A program made the translations under genes and the position numbers. From a virus: a stretch of DNA of 28,601 nucleotides. Positions 312 to 28,601 of this stretch are shown here, piece after piece; positions within the stretch are counted from its first letter, which is position 1, and each line of letters starts with the position of its first letter. The notes beneath the pieces are model-generated. The model ran no database searches and was not told where the DNA came from. It saw nothing but the letters and a program-made list of their open reading frames with translations. Location: positions 1-28,601 of IMG/VR virus record IMGVR_UViG_3300021142_000142. One strand, written 5' to 3'.

Positions 312-3074
312 CTATCCCGCAGCTTTCAAGTTATCACCAATGCCACCTTCAGCCGCCAAAGGAAGTCCGGGGGCCCACACGGGAGATTTGGTCATCTCCG
401 CCATCATAAAATCGTAAGCCGCTTGTGCTTCATCCTCGGGAACTACAACATAACAGCTATCATGGACCGAAATTTTGATCGGGTATTTCTTATTGATTCT
501 TGCCATGGCTTCGCCCATGACGCACCGGGCTACGCTCTGCGTGCAGTTGTGAACAATGAAAGGCCCTCTACTCCCTAAAACTACGAATCTGTTTCTGGGT
601 CCGCAATCAAGGATGTCGTAAACTTTTCTTTTCTGTTCGTGAAGTCTGGTTTGTCTAACAAGTGCTCCAGAGGCCAACCAGCTTTTAACCTGTTGTACAG
701 TGTTGTGCGCCCTATCCCAGATTCCGCAGATAGTTTTGGAATATCCAACTGTATCGAGCACCTCTTGTTCATTATGTTTGTGCGACGATCTACCCACCGA
801 CAGTTCTCTGGAGTGTAGTTCCCGTTGTTGTCTATACGATCCAACTCCAACCCGCGCTGATATGTAGGTCCCATATCCTCCCAAAAATTCTCGAATGAGC
901 GCTTCCATCTGTCGCACACTTCTATCCCACGCGCCCCATAATTTCTGTATGCTTGGTGCTGAGAGTTCTGGCACCTGGCCCTCATGCTGTCCCATACCGG
1001 ATATGCTGGATGTTTTGACATCCCGTGTTTTATATTCTTTTTGCTTATCAGTAAACGAGTCATACATCCGCAGTTCGGCGTTCCCACTCGCTTGAATTCG
1101 CGAGTAACCTTTGTTCCATCTTTCACTACAACTTTCCCACAATCGCAGCGGAACTCCCAGAAACGCTTCTTTCCATCGCTGTGCGCTGGTCTTATCGCGG
1201 TTAGATATCCAAATTTTTGGCCTGTAAGGTTCGGGGTTCTGTGATGCAACTTTCCATCCTTCATTTGTTAGTACCTCATGGTCTGGAGTCATATAAACGC
1301 CATCTACAGTAACACAAGACTGTACAGACTTAAACACCTTTCCGCCATGAAATACAAACTCTACTCCATCGTGCACCATATCGTCTGCATCTACAGTCTC
1401 TATGGGTTTCCAGCCGTCTGAGGTTAGGACTAACGTACCTTCAGCCAAGCAGTTTTGCAGGACCTTCGGGCCATATATTCTATTTTTGACTTTCCTGCGC
1501 CCTTCATATAACCATTCTTCCTTGCCTTTTTCATTCTTGAACCGTGCCAGCTTTGGGTACTTGATAGAGAGCCCGCTTGGAAGTCTGATGCCCTGCGCCC
1601 CGTACACCGGCAATTCTAGGAACCCCGGCTTGTACATGTAATACTCGTTATCCCGCACTGCTTCCAATACATCCTCACCCTGATACCAAGCATCTTTGAC
1701 TCTGTGATTAATTTCCCGGTATAGATTTACAATGCGCTTTGCTTCCTTTTCATCTACGTTAACATCGATCCCGAACTGCTTAGCCCCAAGATTGATGGAC
1801 TTGCATAGCACCTGATGACCCGAGGAAAAACCGAGCGATAGCACTGCGCATTTCGAGATAAACCGTTGATTTTTCGTAATCTCATCGTACCCAACGTTAA
1901 AGACCTTGCTACCAAAGTCCCGGTACATATCTAGTCCTTGCGTGATGATATCAAGCTGATCCTGTTGCCCTGCAATGTAAAGATTAACCCGAACCTCAAT
2001 GTTGCTGAGGTCAAAACCGACGATCTTATAGCCTTCTGGTGCGACAATAGCTTCTTTGATTTTTGAATCCCTAGCCACATTCTGTAGCTGTAACGCACCG
2101 CCATCCCCCCCTGCAGACCACCTGCCTGTCACCTCGGCCCCATAATACTTGAGCCCTACCGGGAGTTTCCCCTTGGTACGCTTAGCCACTTCAATCAGGC
2201 GTTGGGTTTTGGTTTCCTCTAGGGTCTCCTTCACCTGCAGGCGCGAACTCACAACGGTTTGAACTTTAAAATCCTGGTGCTCAAGAAGTGATAACAGTTC
2301 CTCATCTTTCTTCGCAAAGGCGTAGGTGGGCTTGCCAGTCGTAGGGCTGGTTTTCATCGGGGGCTCGACCCCTAAGCTCCGTAGCACATCCGCAAATTTT
2401 TTATTCGACATAAGGTCTGTCTTGTCTATGCCGCAGTCTTGCAACGCTTGAAGCTTTCGGAACTGAATGTCCCGCAGTGAATCCTCCAGTATAGGCACGC
2501 TAAGCTCCAAGGACGGCTCTACAAACATGCGCAACGTCATGTCAATCAAATTAATCTCGGTCCTATTAAAGCGCGGGGCCAATCGCTTAAACAACTCATA
2601 GGTCAGGTCTACGTCATTCCTGCAGTACATCATGTACGCTTCGAGCTCTGGCTCGGTAAATCTCAGGCGGCGTTTACCTATGGCATTGTAAATCTCAGTG
2701 CCTTTCTCCCCGATACCATAGTGTTCCGCAAGGGCTTTAAGCGATCCTCCAACTTCCGTGCCGTGTAAAGCACGTGCCATCGATAGGGTATCTAGCCAGA
2801 CCTTAGGGTTAATCCCAAAGTGCCATGAAAGAATTGTCGCGTCGAATAAAGTATTGTGGCAAAGGGCGTAGGACTCTTCCCAGTTAAATTGTTTTAGCCA
2901 CTCCGCAGTAGCTTTCTTAGATCCGCTAAATGTTTGGGTTTCTCCATCGTCCACCTTAACGGCAACACCAATAACTTCGAACCGTGGGTCATTAACATAG
3001 CCCTCCGTAGACAGCTTAGTGAGGCTGTACTCTTTGTCGAAAAAAGTTTCGAAATCGGCGGTGATTATTGGCAC
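312..3074 (-). CDS. Family-A DNA polymerase with 3'-5' exonuclease, interrupted by an intein
   Basis: The ORF is 920 residues; removing the 302-residue intein leaves a 618-residue replicative polymerase. Exonuclease motifs are Exo I D7-F-E9, Exo II N74-T-L-F-D78 and Exo III Y150-C-R-N-D154, so proofreading looks intact. Polymerase motif A is GFDLSNIEVRV (D355, E360). Motif B lies around R404-K408. Motif C is V-H-D-S-C with D872. The intein sits between motifs B and C, splitting the conserved L-Q-N/C-T-Q segment after N541. Translation starts at GTG 3074, with an AGAGGGGG Shine-Dalgarno sequence upstream and a 10-nt overlap with the VRR-NUC gene. The lack of an N-terminal 5' nuclease domain is normal for phage enzymes. 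Splicing must occur for an active polymerase, because the insert separates catalytic aspartates D355 and D872. Confidence 0.95.
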   Translation of the reverse strand: MPIITADFETFFDKEYSLTKLSTEGYVNDPRFEVIGVAVKVDDGETQTFSGSKKATAEWLKQFNWEESYALCHNTLFDATILSWHFGINPKVWLDTLSMARALHGTEVGGSLKALAEHYGIGEKGTEIYNAIGKRRLRFTEPELEAYMMYCRNDVDLTYELFKRLAPRFNRTEINLIDMTLRMFVEPSLELSVPILEDSLRDIQFRKLQALQDCGIDKTDLMSNKKFADVLRSLGVEPPMKTSPTTGKPTYAFAKKDEELLSLLEHQDFKVQTVVSSRLQVKETLEETKTQRLIEVAKRTKGKLPVGLKYYGAEVTGRWSAGGDGGALQLQNVARDSKIKEAIVAPEGYKIVGFDLSNIEVRVNLYIAGQQDQLDIITQGLDMYRDFGSKVFNVGYDEITKNQRFISKCAVLSLGFSSGHQVLCKSINLGAKQFGIDVNVDEKEAKRIVNLYREINHRVKDAWYQGEDVLEAVRDNEYYMYKPGFLELPVYGAQGIRLPSGLSIKYPKLARFKNEKGKEEWLYEGRRKVKNRIYGPKVLQNCLAEGTLVLTSDGWKPIETVDADDMVHDGVEFVFHGGKVFKSVQSCVTVDGVYMTPDHEVLTNEGWKVASQNPEPYRPKIWISNRDKTSAQRWKEAFLGVPLRLWESCSERWNKGYSRIQASGNAELRMYDSFTDKQKEYKTRDVKTSSISGMGQHEGQVPELSAPSIQKLWGAWDRSVRQMEALIREFLGGYGTYISARVGVGSYRQQRELHSRELSVGRSSHKHNEQEVLDTVGYSKTICGIWDRAHNTVQQVKSWLASGALVRQTRLHEQKRKVYDILDCGPRNRFVVLGSRGPFIVHNCTQSVARCVMGEAMARINKKYPIKISVHDSCYVVVPEDEAQAAYDFMMAEMTKSPVWAPGLPLAAEGGIGDNLKAAG
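546..1451 (-). other. Intein in DNA polymerase (residues 542-843), splicing domains only in frame
   Basis: The in-frame insert is 302 residues. Block A starts at C542 (CLAEGTLVLTSDGW). Block B is T-P-D-H-E-V-L-T. Block F is VYDILDCGPRNRFVV. Block G is P-F-I-V-H-N, followed by extein Cys+1 (C844). All standard class 1 catalytic residues are present: C1, the block B T-x-x-H, the penultimate His-Asn pair and a Cys nucleophile at +1. The segment between blocks B and F has no LAGLIDADG, HNH or other endonuclease motif in the intein frame. It reads as low-information sequence because it is the shifted-frame translation of the nested HNH gene at 581-1264. The insertion site is a conserved polymerase motif, as expected for homing. 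Confidence 0.93.
581..1264 (-). CDS. HNH homing endonuclease nested out of frame inside the polymerase intein
   Basis: This 227-residue protein is encoded wholly within the intein, in the +1 frame relative to polymerase. The N-terminal region (about residues 14-70) is a Cys-rich module (G-Q-K-F-G-Y-L-T, C-D-C-G, N-C-G-C) seen in phage HNH proteins. The HNH core (about 85-165) contains V-W-D-S-M-R-A-R-C, Y-G-A-R-G-I, L-D-R-I-D-N and N-Y-T-P-E-N-C-R-W. A helix-turn-helix resembling NUMOD-type DNA-recognition modules follows (L-S-A-E-S-G-I-G-R-T-T-L-Y). The start ATG at 1264 lies in the codons for N-E-G just after block B and is preceded by ATGAGGT at good spacing. The stop lies inside block F. 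The HNH core closely resembles that of the free-standing gene at 4548-5192. It presumably cuts intein-less polymerase alleles; that is inference. Confidence 0.92.
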   Translation of the reverse strand: MKDGKLHHRTPNLTGQKFGYLTAIRPAHSDGKKRFWEFRCDCGKVVVKDGTKVTREFKRVGTPNCGCMTRLLISKKNIKHGMSKHPAYPVWDSMRARCQNSQHQAYRNYGARGIEVCDRWKRSFENFWEDMGPTYQRGLELDRIDNNGNYTPENCRWVDRRTNIMNKRCSIQLDIPKLSAESGIGRTTLYNRLKAGWPLEHLLDKPDFTNRKEKFTTSLIADPETDS

Positions 3075-3361
3075 GGTCTTACCCCCTCTAAAATACTCTT
3101 GAGCTCATCTATATTGCTGTCGTCTACGACGAGGGCGAAACCCCCGGCACTTTTAATTCTTTCTATCTCTCGCAACTGCAATGCTGTTGCTTTATTCTTC
3201 CCGGCTTTAATCTCCAACCCAACAAAGAGCCCATCCAAACACACGATGATGTCTGGCACCCCGCGAGCGGAGTATTGCCCACCTATAGGGAAGAAGTAGT
3301 AGCATCCTAGCTCATCCAATATCTTCTTCACGCGGGCTTTTTGCTTCCCTTCAGGCGTCAT
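3065..3361 (-). CDS. VRR-NUC domain nuclease
   Basis: Ninety-eight residues, the size of stand-alone phage VRR-NUC proteins. The core is visible: Y-S-A-R-G-V-P-D-I-I-V (metal-binding D), then G-L-E-I-K-A-G (E-x-K), then Q-L-R-E-I (conserved Q). These residues define the PD-(D/E)XK-like VRR-NUC fold, a structure-specific nuclease found in replication modules. ATG 3361 is chosen because it forms a 4-nt ATGA overlap with the upstream gene and has GGAG eight nt upstream. An in-frame ATG at 3382 lacks a ribosome site. The gene overlaps the polymerase start, so the two are probably translationally coupled. The role in trimming replication or recombination intermediates is inferred. Confidence 0.88.
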   Translation of the reverse strand: MTPEGKQKARVKKILDELGCYYFFPIGGQYSARGVPDIIVCLDGLFVGLEIKAGKNKATALQLREIERIKSAGGFALVVDDSNIDELKSILEGVRPCQ

Positions 3362-3825
3362 ACTCCAGTCTCCACCCAGCATTTAAACGATACGCACTCT
3401 ACCTCACAGGTCTTTCTTTTCCAACAGTTATCGCAGGGGCATGGTGATTCCTCTATTACTACAGCCATTGTTGCTTCTTCGCGCTTTTGTTTGTTGTAGC
3501 TATTACTGGCATTGCTTCGGCATTGCTTGCATCGTACTTCCTGATACTCCCTATCGGTTCCTTTGAACCTCCATCCGAACGCGCTAGAGGGCTTCCGCTC
3601 TCCGCAATCCGTGCAAGTCTTTGGGGGCAACGCTTCCATGCGCTCTTCCGATCCCTTCCAGAGCTTATTGTTCTTTATGGCTGACACCAGCCCTTTCGAG
3701 AGGCCGTAGACCTCCGTGATTTCCTTACCCGTATGCCCGCAGTTTAACAGATGCCTAATGACTTTGACCGCTTCAAGTGAAAGCTTTGCCCCCTGATTAT
3801 TCTCCCCGGCGTTCCGTGTTTTCAT
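3358..3825 (-). CDS. HTH and zinc-finger protein, endonuclease-accessory-like
   Basis: This 155-residue protein has no catalytic nuclease motif. Residues about 8-55 (G-E-N-N-Q-G-A-K-L-S, then an HTH ending in K-L-W-K) match the DNA-recognition HTH often attached to phage HNH endonucleases. Residues about 70-105 hold C-T-D-C-G-E-R-K-P-S and C-K-Q-C, the zinc knuckle typical of the N-terminus of endonuclease VII-like proteins. A second Cys cluster (C-P-C-D-N-C, C-E-V-E-C) lies near the C-terminus. It may be a domesticated DNA-binding protein or a decayed homing endonuclease. The GGAAG site six nt before ATG 3825 supports this start, which lies inside the end of the preceding gene. Confidence 0.65.
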   Translation of the reverse strand: MKTRNAGENNQGAKLSLEAVKVIRHLLNCGHTGKEITEVYGLSKGLVSAIKNNKLWKGSEERMEALPPKTCTDCGERKPSSAFGWRFKGTDREYQEVRCKQCRSNASNSYNKQKREEATMAVVIEESPCPCDNCWKRKTCEVECVSFKCWVETGV

Positions 3826-4372: not shown

Positions 4373-4548
4373 GGGTTCTCCGGCTCTTCTACTTTCTCAC
4401 TTTCAATCATCAAATTTCTAACCTCTACAACACACTCGGGGCACATCGTCCCTACCCCCTGAGCGAACAGAAACTTTACATCCGATACATCTCTCTGGCA
4501 GAACGAACAGGAGGCATTCTGCGCATTACGTTTGGTTAGTATTTCCAT
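4369..4548 (-). CDS. ClpX-type zinc-finger small protein
   Basis: Fifty-nine residues. C-S-F-C-Q-R-D-V-S-D-V-K-F-L and G-T-M-C-P-E-C-V-V-E-V resemble the C4 zinc-binding domain at the N-terminus of ClpX (C-S-F-C-x-K ... I-C-x-x-C-V). No AAA+ domain follows. The start is ATG 4548, which shares one nt with the stop of the HNH gene (TGATG) and has GGAGGGG directly upstream; the longer in-frame start at 4581 is unlikely. In ClpX this domain binds substrates and adaptors, so an effect on ClpXP is possible but only inferred. Confidence 0.62.
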   Translation of the reverse strand: MEILTKRNAQNASCSFCQRDVSDVKFLFAQGVGTMCPECVVEVRNLMIESEKVEEPENP

Positions 4549-5192
4549 CACTCCCCTCCTATCCCATGGTGCTTTAGCCATTCCTGCCTAGCCTGATTCG
4601 CTTTTTCCGCGCTATCAAAAGACCCGATGTGAACTCTATTTTTCCTGCTTCCGTAATAGGCATTCCACCGGTTATATCTTTTATCGTGAGCAACCCCTGC
4701 GTAACCTGTTGTATTGTTCCTGCTAAGCCCTGTTGCTGACGCTGGATTCTTCCCTTCATACCAATACTTTTGTTCCGCATCTTTTCTTGCTTTTAGCGCC
4801 TCTTCAAATGTTCCGTATTGGCCTACATGAAAAGTCTTATTTCCGACACCTATCTGCACTTTATATCGGCCTTCGCACAGAGAAATTCCAACACCCACTC
4901 TTGTCGCTTTTCCCGTGTTTCTAGCTTGTTGAGTCCTACTTGCCCACCGGCAATTTTCTGGTGAGTAGCCCTTGTCATTGTCTATCCGATCAAGCGTCAT
5001 TCCATCTGGGCTTTTCCCCATGTCAGAAATAAACTTAGCTAAATCATTTACCCATTCATCGCATACCCCAATCCCCCTGCCGCCATATCTCGCGTAACTT
5101 TTGTGTTTTGGATTTAGGCATCTTGCTTTCATGTCTAGCCAACAAATGTACTCTTTCCTATGCGTAGCAGAATAGCCGTGTGTTCTAACCAT
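4548..5192 (-). CDS. Free-standing HNH homing endonuclease with two AP2-like domains
   Basis: This 214-residue protein has an HNH core at about residues 15-90: [26 protein letters not shown] and Y-S-P-E-N-C-R-W. Two AP2-like DNA-binding repeats follow. The first is about 95-140 (Y-K-V-Q-I-G-V ... Q-Y-G-T-F-E-E-A). The second is about 160-205 (T-G-Y-A-G-V ... [10 protein letters not shown]). It has a strong site (GGAGAATAATA) before ATG 5192. It sits between small operon genes, as expected for a mobile endonuclease gene inserted in an intergenic junction. Its HNH core is closely related to the one nested in the polymerase intein. Confidence 0.92.
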
Positions 5193-18544: not shown

Positions 18545-19042
18545 ATGGAAGATTTTGAAATCCCTCTCGGTCGTACACCTGCCTCACACGCCAAGGCCGT
18601 TTTCGCTTCTCCAGCGTTTATCAATGCAAAAATCCCCGATGCTCCTTCAGAGCCTCTCACAGCCCAAGAAATGGATTGGGTGACTTCCACGGTGGCACAA
18701 GGACAAAAAACGTCACCAGCGCCGTCTCCGGCAGCGGAAAGGTATCTCACAACGGCTTTTAGACCCTACGATTTCGCATTGCCTGTTACAGAGACGCAAT
18801 GGAGGAACTTTGTCCTGACGAAGTGGTATCAGCAAGCAAACGACCCAGACCCTAAAATTGCCAAGGCGGCATTGGATTCGATTGCCAAATCCTGCGTAGC
18901 TAACCTGATGGTTGAGAAAAAGGAGATCAGCATTACAACAAAACCCACCGGGGAACTTGAAGCGGAGCTTGCGGGACTCATAGCCAAACTATCTGGCCGA
19001 GTGAATGAGAAGGTTGTTGAAGGCACAGCGGAGCGCGTGTGA
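18545..19042 (+). CDS. Putative small terminase subunit or terminase-associated protein
   Basis: One hundred sixty-five residues from ATG 18545; an in-frame ATG at 18500 adds 15 residues, and neither has a clear ribosome site. The C-terminal half (W-R-N-F-V-L-T-K-W-Y-Q-Q-A, D-P-K-I-A-K-A-A-L-D-S-I-A-K) is helical and ends with a Glu/Leu-rich oligomerisation-like segment. Its place directly before TerL, with a TGATG overlap, suggests TerS, which would recognise the packaging site. The sequence alone is not diagnostic. Confidence 0.6.
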   Translation: MEDFEIPLGRTPASHAKAVFASPAFINAKIPDAPSEPLTAQEMDWVTSTVAQGQKTSPAPSPAAERYLTTAFRPYDFALPVTETQWRNFVLTKWYQQANDPDPKIAKAALDSIAKSCVANLMVEKKEISITTKPTGELEAELAGLIAKLSGRVNEKVVEGTAERV

Positions 19043-21582
19043 TGTTGGAAGGCATATCCCCCGAAGCCATAGAAGCTGCATTAGCCCACGCCTCAACGGA
19101 GGAGAAACGGAAACTCAATGCCATACTGTCGGAGCTTGATAAGCGTGAGAACCGCAAGAAATGCCAAGAGGACTTCATCAGTTTCGTAAAATCCCAGTAC
19201 CCCGATTTCATTTCGGGAGCGCACCATCAGCGTATTGCCAAGCTGTTTGAAGACATCGCTGCCGGAAGGAAAAAACGCGTAATTATTAATTTGGCTCCGA
19301 GACATAGCAAATCGTTATTCGCATCCTACTTATTCCCTGCGTGGTTCTTGGGTAGATTTCCGAAAAAGCAGATCCTACAGGTATCCAACACAGGCGAGCT
19401 CGCTGAAGGCTTCGGTAGGCAGGTGAGAAATCTATTGGAGTCTGAATCTTATCAGGATATTTTCCCTGATGTGTCTCTTAGATCGGACTCAAAGTCAGCA
19501 GGGCGCTGGGCTACAAACCATAACGGCGTTTACTATGCGTGCGGTGTTGGAGCGGCCTTGGCAGGACGCGGTGCTGATTTAGCAATCGTGGATGACCCGC
19601 ATAACGAACAAGAGGCGCTTGCGGCAATTCTTAATCCCGGTATCTACGATAAAATCTACGAGTGGTATACAACAGGTATTCGTCAGCGTTTGCAGCCCGG
19701 TGGGGCTATTGTCATCGTTATGTGCATGACCGGGGATACGAAAGTTTTGATGGCGACGGGGGTAGAAAAACCACTGCAAGACATACGCCCCGGAGATGTG
19801 GTAGCGACTTTCGATGCGGGTAAGCTGACAACAGCCAAGGTGAAAAACTGGCGGTCATGTGGTGTTGATTCCATACACAAAATACAAACACAATCTGGTA
19901 GAATACTCCGAGCAAATGAGAGACACCCGTTTCTTGTGATGAACGAAGGAGTATTGGAATGGACGAGACTAAAAAACTTGAGGCCGGGAGATCAACTTGT
20001 ATCACGGAAGGATGTAGCAGACCTTCTAGGACAAAGAAGCCGGGGCTTTGCGACTCGTGCTATAAAAAACAGACATATACTCCATGGACTTCGGAAGATA
20101 GTTTTGGGCCTTGTACAAACGAAGGGTGCAACAGGCCGGGGAGAGCAAAGACAAAACCCAGTAAGTGCGGACCTTGCAAAGCAAGCGATAGCTACCACCG
20201 CAAAAACCCAGACGCCCCTAGGCATCCTCCCGGGCATCACGGAAAGCATAAAGGAAAAACTTGCTCAGAGCTGGGTTGCCAAAATGACATTGTGTCTAAA
20301 GGCTTATGTGCCTCACACTACAACGCAAAAAGATGGCAAGATGGTCACGGCAGACGCACTCCAGAATTACGAAGAGCTACGCGCATTAAATCGCGGTACG
20401 GGATTACTATCGAAGAGTACGATGCAATGGTCGAAAAACAAGGCGGCAAGTGCGCAGTTTGCAAAGAGCCACCATCTGATAAAAACACAAGAGCACATTG
20501 GAACGGGAAGCTCTGCATCGACCACTGCCACGACACAGGAAAAGTCAGAGGGTTATTGTGCAACGATTGCAACCTCGCTGTTGGATACGGAAAAACACCA
20601 GAAGTACTTGAGCGAGCTGCGGCGTATCTCAGACTTCACGACGGATCAGATTCTGACGATAACTCCTGACGGGGAGGCCGAAGTTTTTGATGTGGAGATT
20701 GATAGGACGGAGAATTTTATCGCCAACGGGGTAGTTTCCCACAATACTAGATGGTCCCTCCGCGACCTTACCGCGCAGGTGCTTGAGACCGCGGCTAAAA
20801 ACAATAAAGCCGATCAGTGGGAAGTTTTTGAGTTCCCGGCTATTTTGCCATCGGGTAAACCACTCTGGCCGCAGTATTGGTCGAAGGATGAGCTGGAGAC
20901 CGTAAAAGCCTCTATCCCCGTAGCGAAGTGGCAAGCCCAGTACATGCAGGACCCCACATCCGATGAGAACGCTATCATCAAGCGGCAGGATTGGAGAATC
21001 TGGGAAGCGGAGCGACCTCCCCCTGTGGAGTACATCATTATGGCTATGGACACGGCGTTTGAAGCGCGTAAGTCTGCTGACTACTCTGCGGCTGTGTTTT
21101 TTGGTGTGTGGAACAATGATGACGATGGGGGTCAACCTAACCTGATTTTGCTGAATGCGTGGCGAGACAAGCTTGAGTTTCCTGAGTTAAAAGCCAAGAC
21201 GCTCGAAATGTACAAGGAGTGGGAACCTGATAGCATCATCATTGAAAAACGCGCCAGTGGTGCACCGTTGATTTACGAACTTCGCAGAATGGGTATTCCC
21301 GTTGGGGAGTTTACGCCGTCTCGGGGTAACGATAAGATAACCCGCTTGAATGCCATTGCCGATATATTTGCTTCGGGTAAAGTATGGAGACCTGATACGC
21401 GATGGGCTGAAGAGGTTGTGGATGAAATGGCGGCGTTTCCTAATGCGCGTAACGACGACTACGTTGACGCTACCAGCCTGTGTTTGCACAGATATAGGCA
21501 AGGCGGGTTTATTGGAACCCAGCACGACGAAGAGGATGTGGATTTTTCTTTATACCGGGCAAAGCGTGCCGCTTACTATTGA
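19042..21582 (+). CDS. terL: Large terminase subunit (TerL) interrupted by an intein
   Basis: The ORF is 846 residues; without the 341-residue intein the TerL is 505. ATPase motifs are the Walker A-like P-R-H-S-K-S (86-91), Walker B L-A-I-V-D-D (180-185) and the coupling motif V-M/T-R-W, which the intein splits after M227. Nuclease motifs follow: M-A-M-D-T-A-F-E, I-I-I-E-K-R-A-S-G and N-D-D-Y-V-D-A-T-S. ATG 19042 shares one nt with the upstream stop; the GTG at 19039 is an alternative. TerL cuts concatemers and pumps DNA into the head, so splicing at the ATPase core is needed for activity. Confidence 0.96.
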   Translation: MLEGISPEAIEAALAHASTEEKRKLNAILSELDKRENRKKCQEDFISFVKSQYPDFISGAHHQRIAKLFEDIAAGRKKRVIINLAPRHSKSLFASYLFPAWFLGRFPKKQILQVSNTGELAEGFGRQVRNLLESESYQDIFPDVSLRSDSKSAGRWATNHNGVYYACGVGAALAGRGADLAIVDDPHNEQEALAAILNPGIYDKIYEWYTTGIRQRLQPGGAIVIVMCMTGDTKVLMATGVEKPLQDIRPGDVVATFDAGKLTTAKVKNWRSCGVDSIHKIQTQSGRILRANERHPFLVMNEGVLEWTRLKNLRPGDQLVSRKDVADLLGQRSRGFATRAIKNRHILHGLRKIVLGLVQTKGATGRGEQRQNPVSADLAKQAIATTAKTQTPLGILPGITESIKEKLAQSWVAKMTLCLKAYVPHTTTQKDGKMVTADALQNYEELRALNRGTGLLSKSTMQWSKNKAASAQFAKSHHLIKTQEHIGTGSSASTTATTQEKSEGYCATIATSLLDTEKHQKYLSELRRISDFTTDQILTITPDGEAEVFDVEIDRTENFIANGVVSHNTRWSLRDLTAQVLETAAKNNKADQWEVFEFPAILPSGKPLWPQYWSKDELETVKASIPVAKWQAQYMQDPTSDENAIIKRQDWRIWEAERPPPVEYIIMAMDTAFEARKSADYSAAVFFGVWNNDDDGGQPNLILLNAWRDKLEFPELKAKTLEMYKEWEPDSIIIEKRASGAPLIYELRRMGIPVGEFTPSRGNDKITRLNAIADIFASGKVWRPDTRWAEEVVDEMAAFPNARNDDYVDATSLCLHRYRQGGFIGTQHDEEDVDFSLYRAKRAAYY
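19723..20745 (+). other. Intein in TerL (residues 228-568), splicing domains only in frame
   Basis: The insert is 341 residues. Block A is C228-M-T-G-D-T-K-V-L-M. Block B is N-E-R-H-P-F-L-V. Block F is E-V-F-D-V-E-I-D-R-T-E-N-F-I-A. Block G is N-G-V-V-S-H-N, followed by extein Thr+1 (T569). Block B has Asn where Thr is usual, but keeps the His. Between blocks B and F the intein frame has no endonuclease motif and is rich in Thr, Ala, Lys and Gln, as expected of a shifted-frame reading of the nested gene at 19959-20669. Insertion is in the conserved ATPase coupling motif. Confidence 0.93.
19959..20669 (+). CDS. Endonuclease VII-like HNH homing endonuclease nested out of frame inside the TerL intein
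   Basis: The 236-residue product is read in the +2 frame relative to TerL and lies wholly within the intein. Three tandem zinc knuckles come first: C14-x4-C19 with C31-x2-C34, C52-x4-C57 with C70-x2-C73, and C102-x4-C107 with C117-x2-H120. The endonuclease VII/HNH domain spans about 146-225, with C165-A-V-C168 and the catalytic I-D-H-C-H-D-T-G-K-V-R-G and C-N-D-C-N (201-205). AAGGAG lies seven nt before ATG 19959; that site is made of intein codons for N-E-G-V just after block B. The stop lies just before block F. It probably drives intein homing; its cleavage site is inferred to be the TerL coupling-motif region. Confidence 0.93.
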   Translation: MDETKKLEAGRSTCITEGCSRPSRTKKPGLCDSCYKKQTYTPWTSEDSFGPCTNEGCNRPGRAKTKPSKCGPCKASDSYHRKNPDAPRHPPGHHGKHKGKTCSELGCQNDIVSKGLCASHYNAKRWQDGHGRRTPELRRATRIKSRYGITIEEYDAMVEKQGGKCAVCKEPPSDKNTRAHWNGKLCIDHCHDTGKVRGLLCNDCNLAVGYGKTPEVLERAAAYLRLHDGSDSDDNS

Positions 21583-27174: not shown

Positions 27175-28089
27175 ATGGCTGCTATTACACGCGCGCAATT
27201 ACTTAAAGAGCTGCTCCCCGGCTTGAACGCACTGTTCGGTCTGGAATATGAGCGGTATGGTGAGGAATACAAGGAGCTTTTTGAAACTGAAAGTTCTGAG
27301 CGTTCCTTTGAAGAAGAACAGAAGCTCTCCGGCTTCGGTGCCGCCCCGGTTAAGGCCGAAGGTAGCGCCATTGCGTATGACAATGCGCAGGAAGCTTGGA
27401 ACACTCGCTACACCCACGAAACCATTGCACTTGGCTTCTCTCTCACCGAAGAAGCTATCGAAGATAACCTGTATGACTCACTGTCTGCACGTTATACCAA
27501 GGCGCTGGCTCGTGCTATGGCGTACACCAAGGAAGTCAAGGGCGCTAACATTCTGAACAACGGCTTTAACTCGAACTACAAAGGTGGTGACGGTCAGGCT
27601 CTGTTCAGCAATGCTCACCCACTGACCTATGGTTCAACCATCTCCAACATCCCGTCAACCCCTGCGGATCTGAACGAAACCTCACTTGAAAATGCGGTTA
27701 TTCAGATTTCTCTGTGGACTGACGAACGTGGTCTGCTCATCGCAGCTAAGCCGAAGAAGCTGGTAATCCCGTCTGCCCTGCAGTTCGTAGCTACTCGCAT
27801 CCTCGAAACTGAGCTTCGTGTTGGCACTTCTGACAACGATATTAACGCTCTGAAGAACAATGGTTCTATTCCGGGTGGCTATACTGTTAATCACTGGTTG
27901 ACTGACACCAATGCTTGGTTCCTTACCACGGACGTACCGAATGGCCTGAAGCATTTCGTTCGTACACCGCTTTCTACCAGTATGGACGCTGATTTCGATA
28001 CAGGAAACGCTCGCTACAAGGCAAGAGAGCGCTACAGTTTTGGATGGTCCGATTACTTGGGCGTATACGGTTCTTCCGGTTCAACCTGA
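27175..28089 (+). CDS. Major capsid protein (HK97 fold, Mu gpT-like)
   Basis: Three hundred four residues. The N-terminus I-T-R-A-Q-L-L-K-E-L-L-P-G-L, then Y-T-H-E-T-I-A-L-G-F-S-L-T-E-E and L-F-S-N-A-H-P-L and the C-terminal R-Y-S-F-G-W-S-D fit the Mu gpT-type major capsid family. GGAGTAACTTAA precedes ATG 27175. Many frequently used codons (GGT, GCT, CGT, AAC) suggest high expression. A terminator follows directly. Confidence 0.9.
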   Translation: MAAITRAQLLKELLPGLNALFGLEYERYGEEYKELFETESSERSFEEEQKLSGFGAAPVKAEGSAIAYDNAQEAWNTRYTHETIALGFSLTEEAIEDNLYDSLSARYTKALARAMAYTKEVKGANILNNGFNSNYKGGDGQALFSNAHPLTYGSTISNIPSTPADLNETSLENAVIQISLWTDERGLLIAAKPKKLVIPSALQFVATRILETELRVGTSDNDINALKNNGSIPGGYTVNHWLTDTNAWFLTTDVPNGLKHFVRTPLSTSMDADFDTGNARYKARERYSFGWSDYLGVYGSSGST

Positions 28090-28221: not shown

Positions 28222-28601
28222 GTGAAGAACGTGATCTACAAAATCCGCAACGTCGTCAACGATAAGTTTTATGTTGGTAGCACCGTAGATAGCCGCAAAC
28301 GCTTCTGGGCTCATCGTAAAGCACTGCGCTTGGGAAATCACGTTTGCATTCGCCTACAAAGAGCGTGGGATAAGTATGGTGAAGATTGCTTCAGGTTCGA
28401 AATTGTAGAACAGCTAAACAGTAAGGAAGAGCTATTCCCGGCGGAGCAGAAATGGTTGGACGAGCATTTTGGTACAGCCTATTGCTATAACGTGGCTGCC
28501 CATGCTGACGCCCCCATGCGAGATGCAAGCCCGGAAATCAGAGCAAAAATAGCAGCAAAAACTAAGGCGTGGCTCGAACGCGACGGTCATCCAAGAAAAG
28601 G
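28222..28601 (+). CDS. GIY-YIG homing endonuclease, 5' part
   Basis: The first 126 codons are visible and the gene runs off the right edge. The GIY half is V-I-Y-K-I-R-N and the YIG half is F-Y-V-G-S-T. R-K-R-F-W-A-H-R (catalytic Arg region) and A-W-D-K-Y-G-E-D-C-F follow, with the conserved Glu in P-A-E-Q-K-W-L. After the catalytic domain comes S-P-E-I-R-A-K-I, probably the start of a NUMOD-like DNA-binding repeat. GTG 28222 has GGAG seven nt upstream. The placement after the capsid terminator, with its own promoter, fits a free-standing mobile endonuclease. Confidence 0.9.
   Translation, partial: MKNVIYKIRNVVNDKFYVGSTVDSRKRFWAHRKALRLGNHVCIRLQRAWDKYGEDCFRFEIVEQLNSKEELFPAEQKWLDEHFGTAYCYNVAAHADAPMRDASPEIRAKIAAKTKAWLERDGHPRK

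Follow-up and report, generated by a model that had tools for sequence, protein, structure and literature searches.

A DNA polymerase intein with an HNH endonuclease gene nested in another reading frame, and its relatives in phages

Results

The polymerase intein and the open reading frame nested within it

The window analyzed here is the whole of IMG/VR virus record IMGVR_UViG_3300021142_000142 (positions 1 to 28,601; 28,601 nucleotides), a metagenomic virus contig. On its minus strand, a family A DNA polymerase gene carries an intein, and this intein contains, in a different reading frame, a complete open reading frame (ORF) for an HNH endonuclease. In the textbook intein, the splicing domain and the homing endonuclease are fused in one polypeptide; in the canonical bifunctional inteins (such as PI-SceI and, for the HNH type, Synechocystis GyrB) the endonuclease is fused in frame. 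The features of the locus are the following:

312-3074, minus strand: intein-bearing family A DNA polymerase gene, 920 amino acids (ORF; Pfam DNA_pol_A, 2.5e-19, and DNA_pol_A_exo1; PHROG 17 DNA polymerase, 1e-70)
1452-3074 and 312-545, minus strand: polymerase exteins, part of the 920-amino-acid ORF
546-1451, minus strand: polymerase intein, 302 amino acids, from C1 to H301 and N302, then C+1 (homologue alignment, profiles, AlphaFold, Foldseek)
1269-1289, minus strand: intein block B (TPDHEVL), overlapping the HNH start signals (sequence and alignment)
579-623, minus strand: intein block F (VYDILDCGPRNRFVV), also coding for the HNH C-terminal tail and stop (sequence and alignment)
581-1264, minus strand: nested HNH endonuclease ORF, 227 amino acids, ATG start, +1 relative to the intein frame (ORF; PHROG 374; AlphaFold; 42 non-redundant nested homologues)
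1273-1277, minus strand: Shine-Dalgarno sequence GAGGT of the HNH ORF, 8 nucleotides ahead of its ATG and made up of the Glu and Val codons in block B (DHEVLT)
1268-1270, minus strand: HNH-frame stop codon TAA, two codons ahead of the ATG (sequence)

The intein is placed between QN and CTQSVARC of the polymerase sequence. In an alignment of 31 intein homologues, the block A nucleophile C1, residues T55 and H58 of the block B TxxH motif, D279 (blocks F/G) and N302 are invariant and H301 is near-invariant; C+1 follows HN. A profile search with the intein matches solved inteins, and its AlphaFold model has a Hint fold with a predicted local distance difference test score (pLDDT) above 90 at both ends. 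Foldseek aligns this model with the gp41-1, DnaB and RecA inteins at a probability of 1.00 and E-values of 1e-3 to 1e-2. Residues 84-178 and 191-269 have a pLDDT below 50 and form a disordered in-frame linker, and a Pfam scan of the intein frame finds no endonuclease domain. The element is not a bifunctional intein, as no endonuclease is fused in frame with its Hint domain. It is not a split intein either, being one continuous open frame rather than two halves on separate genes. A plasmid search with the intein as query gave no match.

The HNH ORF takes up the B-F interval, the place of the endonuclease in canonical inteins, yet it does so out of frame, and it terminates within block F. Its product matches the PHROG 374 HNH endonuclease (E = 1e-59) and comprises an N-terminal part with CxC...CxC cysteines, an HNH core and a C-terminal helix-turn-helix (HTH)-like segment; relatives of the protein have HTH matches in Pfam. 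The cysteines and the HNH-core residues are invariant across 37 aligned HNH sequences, and the AlphaFold model has a mean pLDDT of 85. Because of the TAA two codons before the ATG, the window ORF is not readable as a frameshift fusion starting far upstream. Among the 42 nested relatives described below, 37 have an HNH-frame stop at most 39 nucleotides upstream of the start of HNH homology, and 39 have a Shine-Dalgarno match of at least 4 nucleotides. Internal initiation would be the likeliest route of HNH expression. A first-pass annotation, made from the sequence alone, had described both elements: a polymerase intein at 546-1451 with blocks A, B, F and G and no in-frame endonuclease, and a complete 227-amino-acid HNH ORF in the +1 frame with its own ATG and Shine-Dalgarno sequence. 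Its intein coordinates are exact, no Pfam nuclease lies in the intein frame, and the HNH ORF is as described.

The nested layout is widespread among relatives

The same layout is found in the isolated phages Shewanella phage SFCi1, Caulobacter phage GB2A and Hamiltonella phage APSE-1 (NC_000935; RefSeq places the HNH endonuclease P46 inside the DNA polymerase P45, in another frame), and further in IMG/VR contigs and in bacterial-genome contigs of several phyla. Out of 177 non-redundant HNH homologues, 42 are nested, and in every one of these the intein frame has the same offset. In the 135 non-nested relatives that frame is open in only three loci (L059, L076 and L061), and L061 is a truncated nested case.

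A census that is free of linker bias was obtained by using as query the first 66 residues of the intein, which are Hint only. This Hint-only census comprises 68 intact inteins with a nested HNH ORF (58 in the +1 frame and 10 in the +2 frame) and four HNH-less mini-inteins of 123-135 amino acids. Taking the HNH-bearing inteins that have both Hint halves in one frame, 68 of 69 are open. An in-frame HNH fusion was found neither in the 72 inteins of this census nor in the 76 inteins found by the full intein profile. 

Three of the +2 cases were inspected (L325:1169-2026, L336:1724-2584 and L340:1793-2626), taken from the full-profile scan made before the Hint-only census. As they lie at another polymerase site and carry an HNH of another subfamily, they look like a separate origin, a third nested lineage besides the window's polymerase and terminase cases. 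The L336 polymerase contains two inteins, with nested HNHs in different frames. Judged from these comparisons, the nested endonuclease is the usual state of this polymerase intein family, has arisen more than once and is common in phages; the polymerase case is not unique, and the terminase gene of the window holds a second case (see below).

The frame under constraint switches within the intein

Upon comparing nested pairs with 50-60% HNH identity, nucleotide differences in the overlap peak at the third positions of the HNH frame (0.59 vs. 0.37 and 0.33), as they do in free-standing HNH genes. Just beyond the overlap, in both terminal parts of the intein (N and C) as well as in the extein, the most variable positions are the third ones of the intein frame (0.65-0.68). 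Within the overlap, the HNH frame, with 42 to 79% amino-acid identity between pairs, reaches about double the identity of the intein frame. Codon junctions that are prone to stops end in T in 0 of 2144 instances in nested genes, a count that is partly given by definition since an open frame was the criterion for calling a gene nested (the Hint-only census is free of this), vs. 2178 of 7803 (28%) in free-standing genes; in other contexts within nested genes, T is present at 1402 of 6742 junctions (21%). The constrained frame thus switches from that of the intein in the splicing blocks to that of the HNH gene between them, where the intein frame is in essence just kept open.

The first-pass annotation had considered the HNH frame to be probably selected, and had estimated by hand that chance would keep it open with a probability near 2 in 100,000. 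Selection is borne out by the homology to PHROG 374 and by the occurrence of the frame at dozens of diverged loci. The figure itself is only rough: upon synonymous recoding of the intein the HNH frame stays open in 0.15% of trials, and upon synonymous recoding of the HNH gene the intein frame stays open in 0 of 2000. The comparative evidence shows both frames to be maintained, and it supports the earlier proposal of a splicing element and an HNH enzyme that are distinct proteins specified by the same DNA.

A second nested endonuclease in the terminase gene

The window includes another intein with an endonuclease ORF in a shifted frame, which the first-pass annotation had missed:

19039-21582, plus strand: terminase large subunit gene with the second intein (Pfam Terminase_6C, 5.4e-8; Intein_splicing, 2.2e-16)
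19723-20745, plus strand: terminase intein, 341 amino acids, CMTGDTKVL ... GVVSHN (Pfam Intein_splicing and sequence)
19959-20669, plus strand: Endonuclease VII-type HNH ORF, 236 amino acids, +2 relative to the terminase frame (Pfam Endonuclease_7, 1.6e-22; PHROG endonuclease VII, 2.6e-30)
19947-19951, plus strand: Shine-Dalgarno sequence AGGAG, 7 nucleotides before the ATG of the nested gene (sequence)

In all 60 non-redundant homologues of this endonuclease (60/60) the host frame is open, and it stands in the same relative frame. Mycobacteriophages, Gordonia phages and one Mycolicibacterium phage contribute 36 records with related terminase inteins, in which the annotation of the region is simply terminase or intein. 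Taking into account that both the nuclease family and the frame differ from those of the polymerase element, the terminase case is of independent origin.

Evidence bearing on mobility

An empty insertion site, QN/ITQAVARCVMGEA, is present in the polymerases of L274 and L275, with N-exteins 72-73% identical. The trees of the HNH protein and of the extein are partly incongruent, at supported nodes: the HNH tree puts L029 with the window's group (98/97), the extein tree with another one that is mainly Bacillota (96/95). L114 shares 60-67% HNH identity with the window's group, but extein identity is only 25-31%. Homologous elements also occur in SNF2-like helicase genes (L018, L046, L048, L051 and L108; the host gene was assigned by sequence inspection). 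The partial incongruence and the additional host genes fit homing together with partly vertical descent (identity correlation, 0.67).

Broken, apparently split and reduced derivatives

At the same polymerase site, L399:2501-3463 has an HNH ORF that is whole, whereas its linker contains five stops; an ATG directly precedes block F. Its status as a stop-bearing intein held up on checking, and it may be either broken or newly split. L369, L370 and L416 have, at a polymerase site further upstream, an N-intein whose ORF ends and an HNH ORF that overlaps on both sides. The C-intein of these loci is in a new ORF, in a different frame, that starts with MLVPVYDI (ATG) and is preceded by a Shine-Dalgarno-like AAGGA, GGAG or GAGGA. 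The three genes also carry a nested intein downstream. From their layout, L369, L370 and L416 look like fractured split inteins. The reading of L369 as a single stop-bearing intein was rejected, as it came from mispaired Hint halves in the Hint-only census.

Other derivatives arose by deletion. L371:2501-2869, L387, L392, L394, L027 and L352:1766-2134 are mini-inteins of 123-135 amino acids or intein remnants that have lost most of the HNH gene.

Discussion

Proposed mode of action and alternative explanations

Taking these data together, we consider that the window carries a mobile polymerase intein and, overprinted on it as a gene of its own, the homing endonuclease of this intein, so that both proteins share the same DNA; we give this reading a probability of about 0.86. 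The polymerase frame would be read through as N-extein, Hint half, unstructured linker of 186 amino acids, Hint half and C-extein, and the Hint halves would splice the intein out. Ribosomes would also start inside the intein, at the Shine-Dalgarno sequence in block B, and produce the free 227-amino-acid HNH protein. The targets of this protein would be polymerase genes that lack the intein; it would cut them at the conserved insertion site, into which repair would copy the whole element. The DNA between blocks B and F evolves in the manner of an HNH gene, the intein frame staying open.

Several points weigh against this interpretation. Splicing, internal initiation with translation of the HNH protein, its cleavage activity and homing of the polymerase element are deduced from sequence and models. 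The Pfam HNH profile (PF01844) matches neither the contig nor the nested protein, the assignment being that of the PHROG profiles, which cover this family better; the match to I-HmuI among PDB profiles is weak (E = 0.06), and a Foldseek search of the HNH model against the PDB gives nothing significant, though the model is confident. With respect to the start signals, a Shine-Dalgarno sequence of at least 4 nucleotides also arises in 66% of synonymous recodings at the chosen start, so its excess over what block-B codons provide is only moderate; the observed start was moreover selected as the best among several candidates, a choice that the null lacks, which makes the test a modest support. As the block-B codons alone reach that proportion, the motif may have had its Shine-Dalgarno sequence beforehand, and the nested gene may simply make use of it.

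The nested frame might be a relic or a chance ORF, with only the intein (or only the HNH gene) being of importance today. Overlapping open frames do occur by chance, a few free-standing relatives have one (L059 and L076), and HNH-less deletion derivatives exist (L027, L371, L392 and L394). We nevertheless regard this explanation as very unlikely, given that HNH identity between pairs is roughly double that of the intein frame, that the cysteines and core residues are invariant, that third positions behave as in a selected HNH gene, and that loss of the HNH gene goes with loss of the whole linker. Expression of the HNH protein as a Hint-HNH fusion by programmed frameshifting, i.e., from a canonical bifunctional intein in frameshifted form, would agree with the constant frame relation within the polymerase-site family; the upstream stops, in the window and in most relatives, leave a very short stretch for a shift, however, and ten inteins as well as the terminase case use the other frame, so that we find it less credible still.

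Genes for HNH enzymes inside introns are the classical arrangement, and the free-standing relatives belong to a family that includes intron endonucleases; the insert could on these grounds be an ORF-bearing self-splicing RNA intron. It is, however, open throughout in the host frame, has intein blocks A, B, F and G and a Hint fold, and shows the third-position constraint of the intein frame at both of its ends, and an Rfam search finds no group I or group II intron; an RNA intron is scarcely probable. As the window is a metagenomic virus contig, indels introduced by sequencing or assembly may be thought of as having broken a single fused frame. To this we attach next to no weight, since the comparative data refute it: layout and offset are identical in isolated, independently sequenced phages and in dozens of contigs, and the count of in-frame fusions is 0/76 (full profile) and 0/72 (Hint-only). 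Compensating indels were what the first-pass annotation had named as evidence against its own reading; what is found is one and the same offset in 42 non-redundant relatives, APSE-1, SFCi1 and GB2A included.

Relation to known systems

With canonical bifunctional inteins, the element shares a Hint domain, an endonuclease coding region between blocks B and F and, it would seem, mobility at a conserved host site; it differs from them in that the endonuclease is a separate protein in another frame. The I-HmuI type of group I intron HNH endonuclease is likewise a free enzyme inside a splicing element, with a distant and weak sequence relation to the nested protein, but here splicing would be that of a protein and not of an RNA, and an open host frame is required all along the endonuclease gene. 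In 2009, Dassa and coworkers reportedly described fractured genes in which a free-standing endonuclease gene lies between the two halves (N and C) of a split intein. They resemble the window in having the endonuclease as a separate protein, and L369, L370 and L416 are comparable loci at another polymerase site; unlike them, the window intein is one continuous open frame and not two genes.

An out-of-frame HNH ORF in an insertion that is open in the host frame has been reported for the ShiLan domain, a hidden HNH in a phage methylase, and homing was inferred (Arsenault et al., 2025, PMC11855218). Neither a splicing domain nor a Shine-Dalgarno sequence was found there, and the authors think that the insertion stays in the protein; a further out-of-frame HNH case is mentioned in PMC12613952. 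The window has in common with ShiLan the out-of-frame HNH ORF within a phage insertion kept open in the host frame. It differs by the full intein (Hint domain) surrounding the HNH ORF and by the presence of a Shine-Dalgarno sequence. APSE-1 P45/P46 is not a system of another kind but a homologue of the window element; the overlap is stated in the record, and we found no paper describing the pair as an intein with a nested endonuclease. The relevant passages of a mycobacteriophage intein survey (PMC5050341) do not mention an alternative-frame nuclease, and our literature search gave no paper on an intein with a nested out-of-frame endonuclease. A preprint on non-canonical actinobacteriophage inteins (Gosselin et al., 2025) may overlap with the present results, including the terminase case, and we do not claim priority for the intein-nested out-of-frame endonuclease. 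The author of the first-pass annotation knew of no described system of this kind, yet the arrangement is not entirely without precedent: P45 and P46 of APSE-1 were already annotated as overlapping, and out-of-frame HNH insertions without an intein are published (PMC11855218).

Implications

Here the gene of an endonuclease, which would be a free protein, overprints the linker of an intein, with start signals built from catalytic splicing blocks. A separate HNH protein could uncouple the amount of enzyme from that of the polymerase. Nested genes also explain the long featureless linkers of phage inteins annotated only as polymerase or terminase, and they provide a clean natural case of overlapping genes, with functional constraint on one frame and, on the other, chiefly the need to remain open. 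The deletion derivatives are ready-made natural Hint domains of about 125 amino acids, useful for splicing tests.

Nested out-of-frame endonucleases might be a second type of intein architecture that has recurred, and one that leads over to split inteins, a transition of which L399 on the one hand and L369, L370 and L416 on the other look like stages; we propose this tentatively and at somewhat less than even odds. The linker frame would stay open as long as splicing must happen in one chain. Once the Hint halves are able to meet on their own, linker stops and indels would accumulate, and a new start arising before block F would give a fractured gene with a split intein. This would be a testable path from contiguous to split inteins.

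Other open reading frames of the window

Two further endonuclease-like ORFs are located elsewhere in the window. The first, at 4548-5192 on the minus strand, encodes an HNH-like protein that is free-standing and has an AP2-like domain at its C terminus (the Pfam AP2 score is slightly under the cut-off). The second, at 28222-28599 on the plus strand, is a GIY-YIG endonuclease ORF, cut by the contig end and situated downstream of a putative capsid gene (27175-28089). A cysteine-rich protein of 155 amino acids (CTDCGERKPSSAF ... CKQC) is encoded at 3358-3825 on the minus strand.

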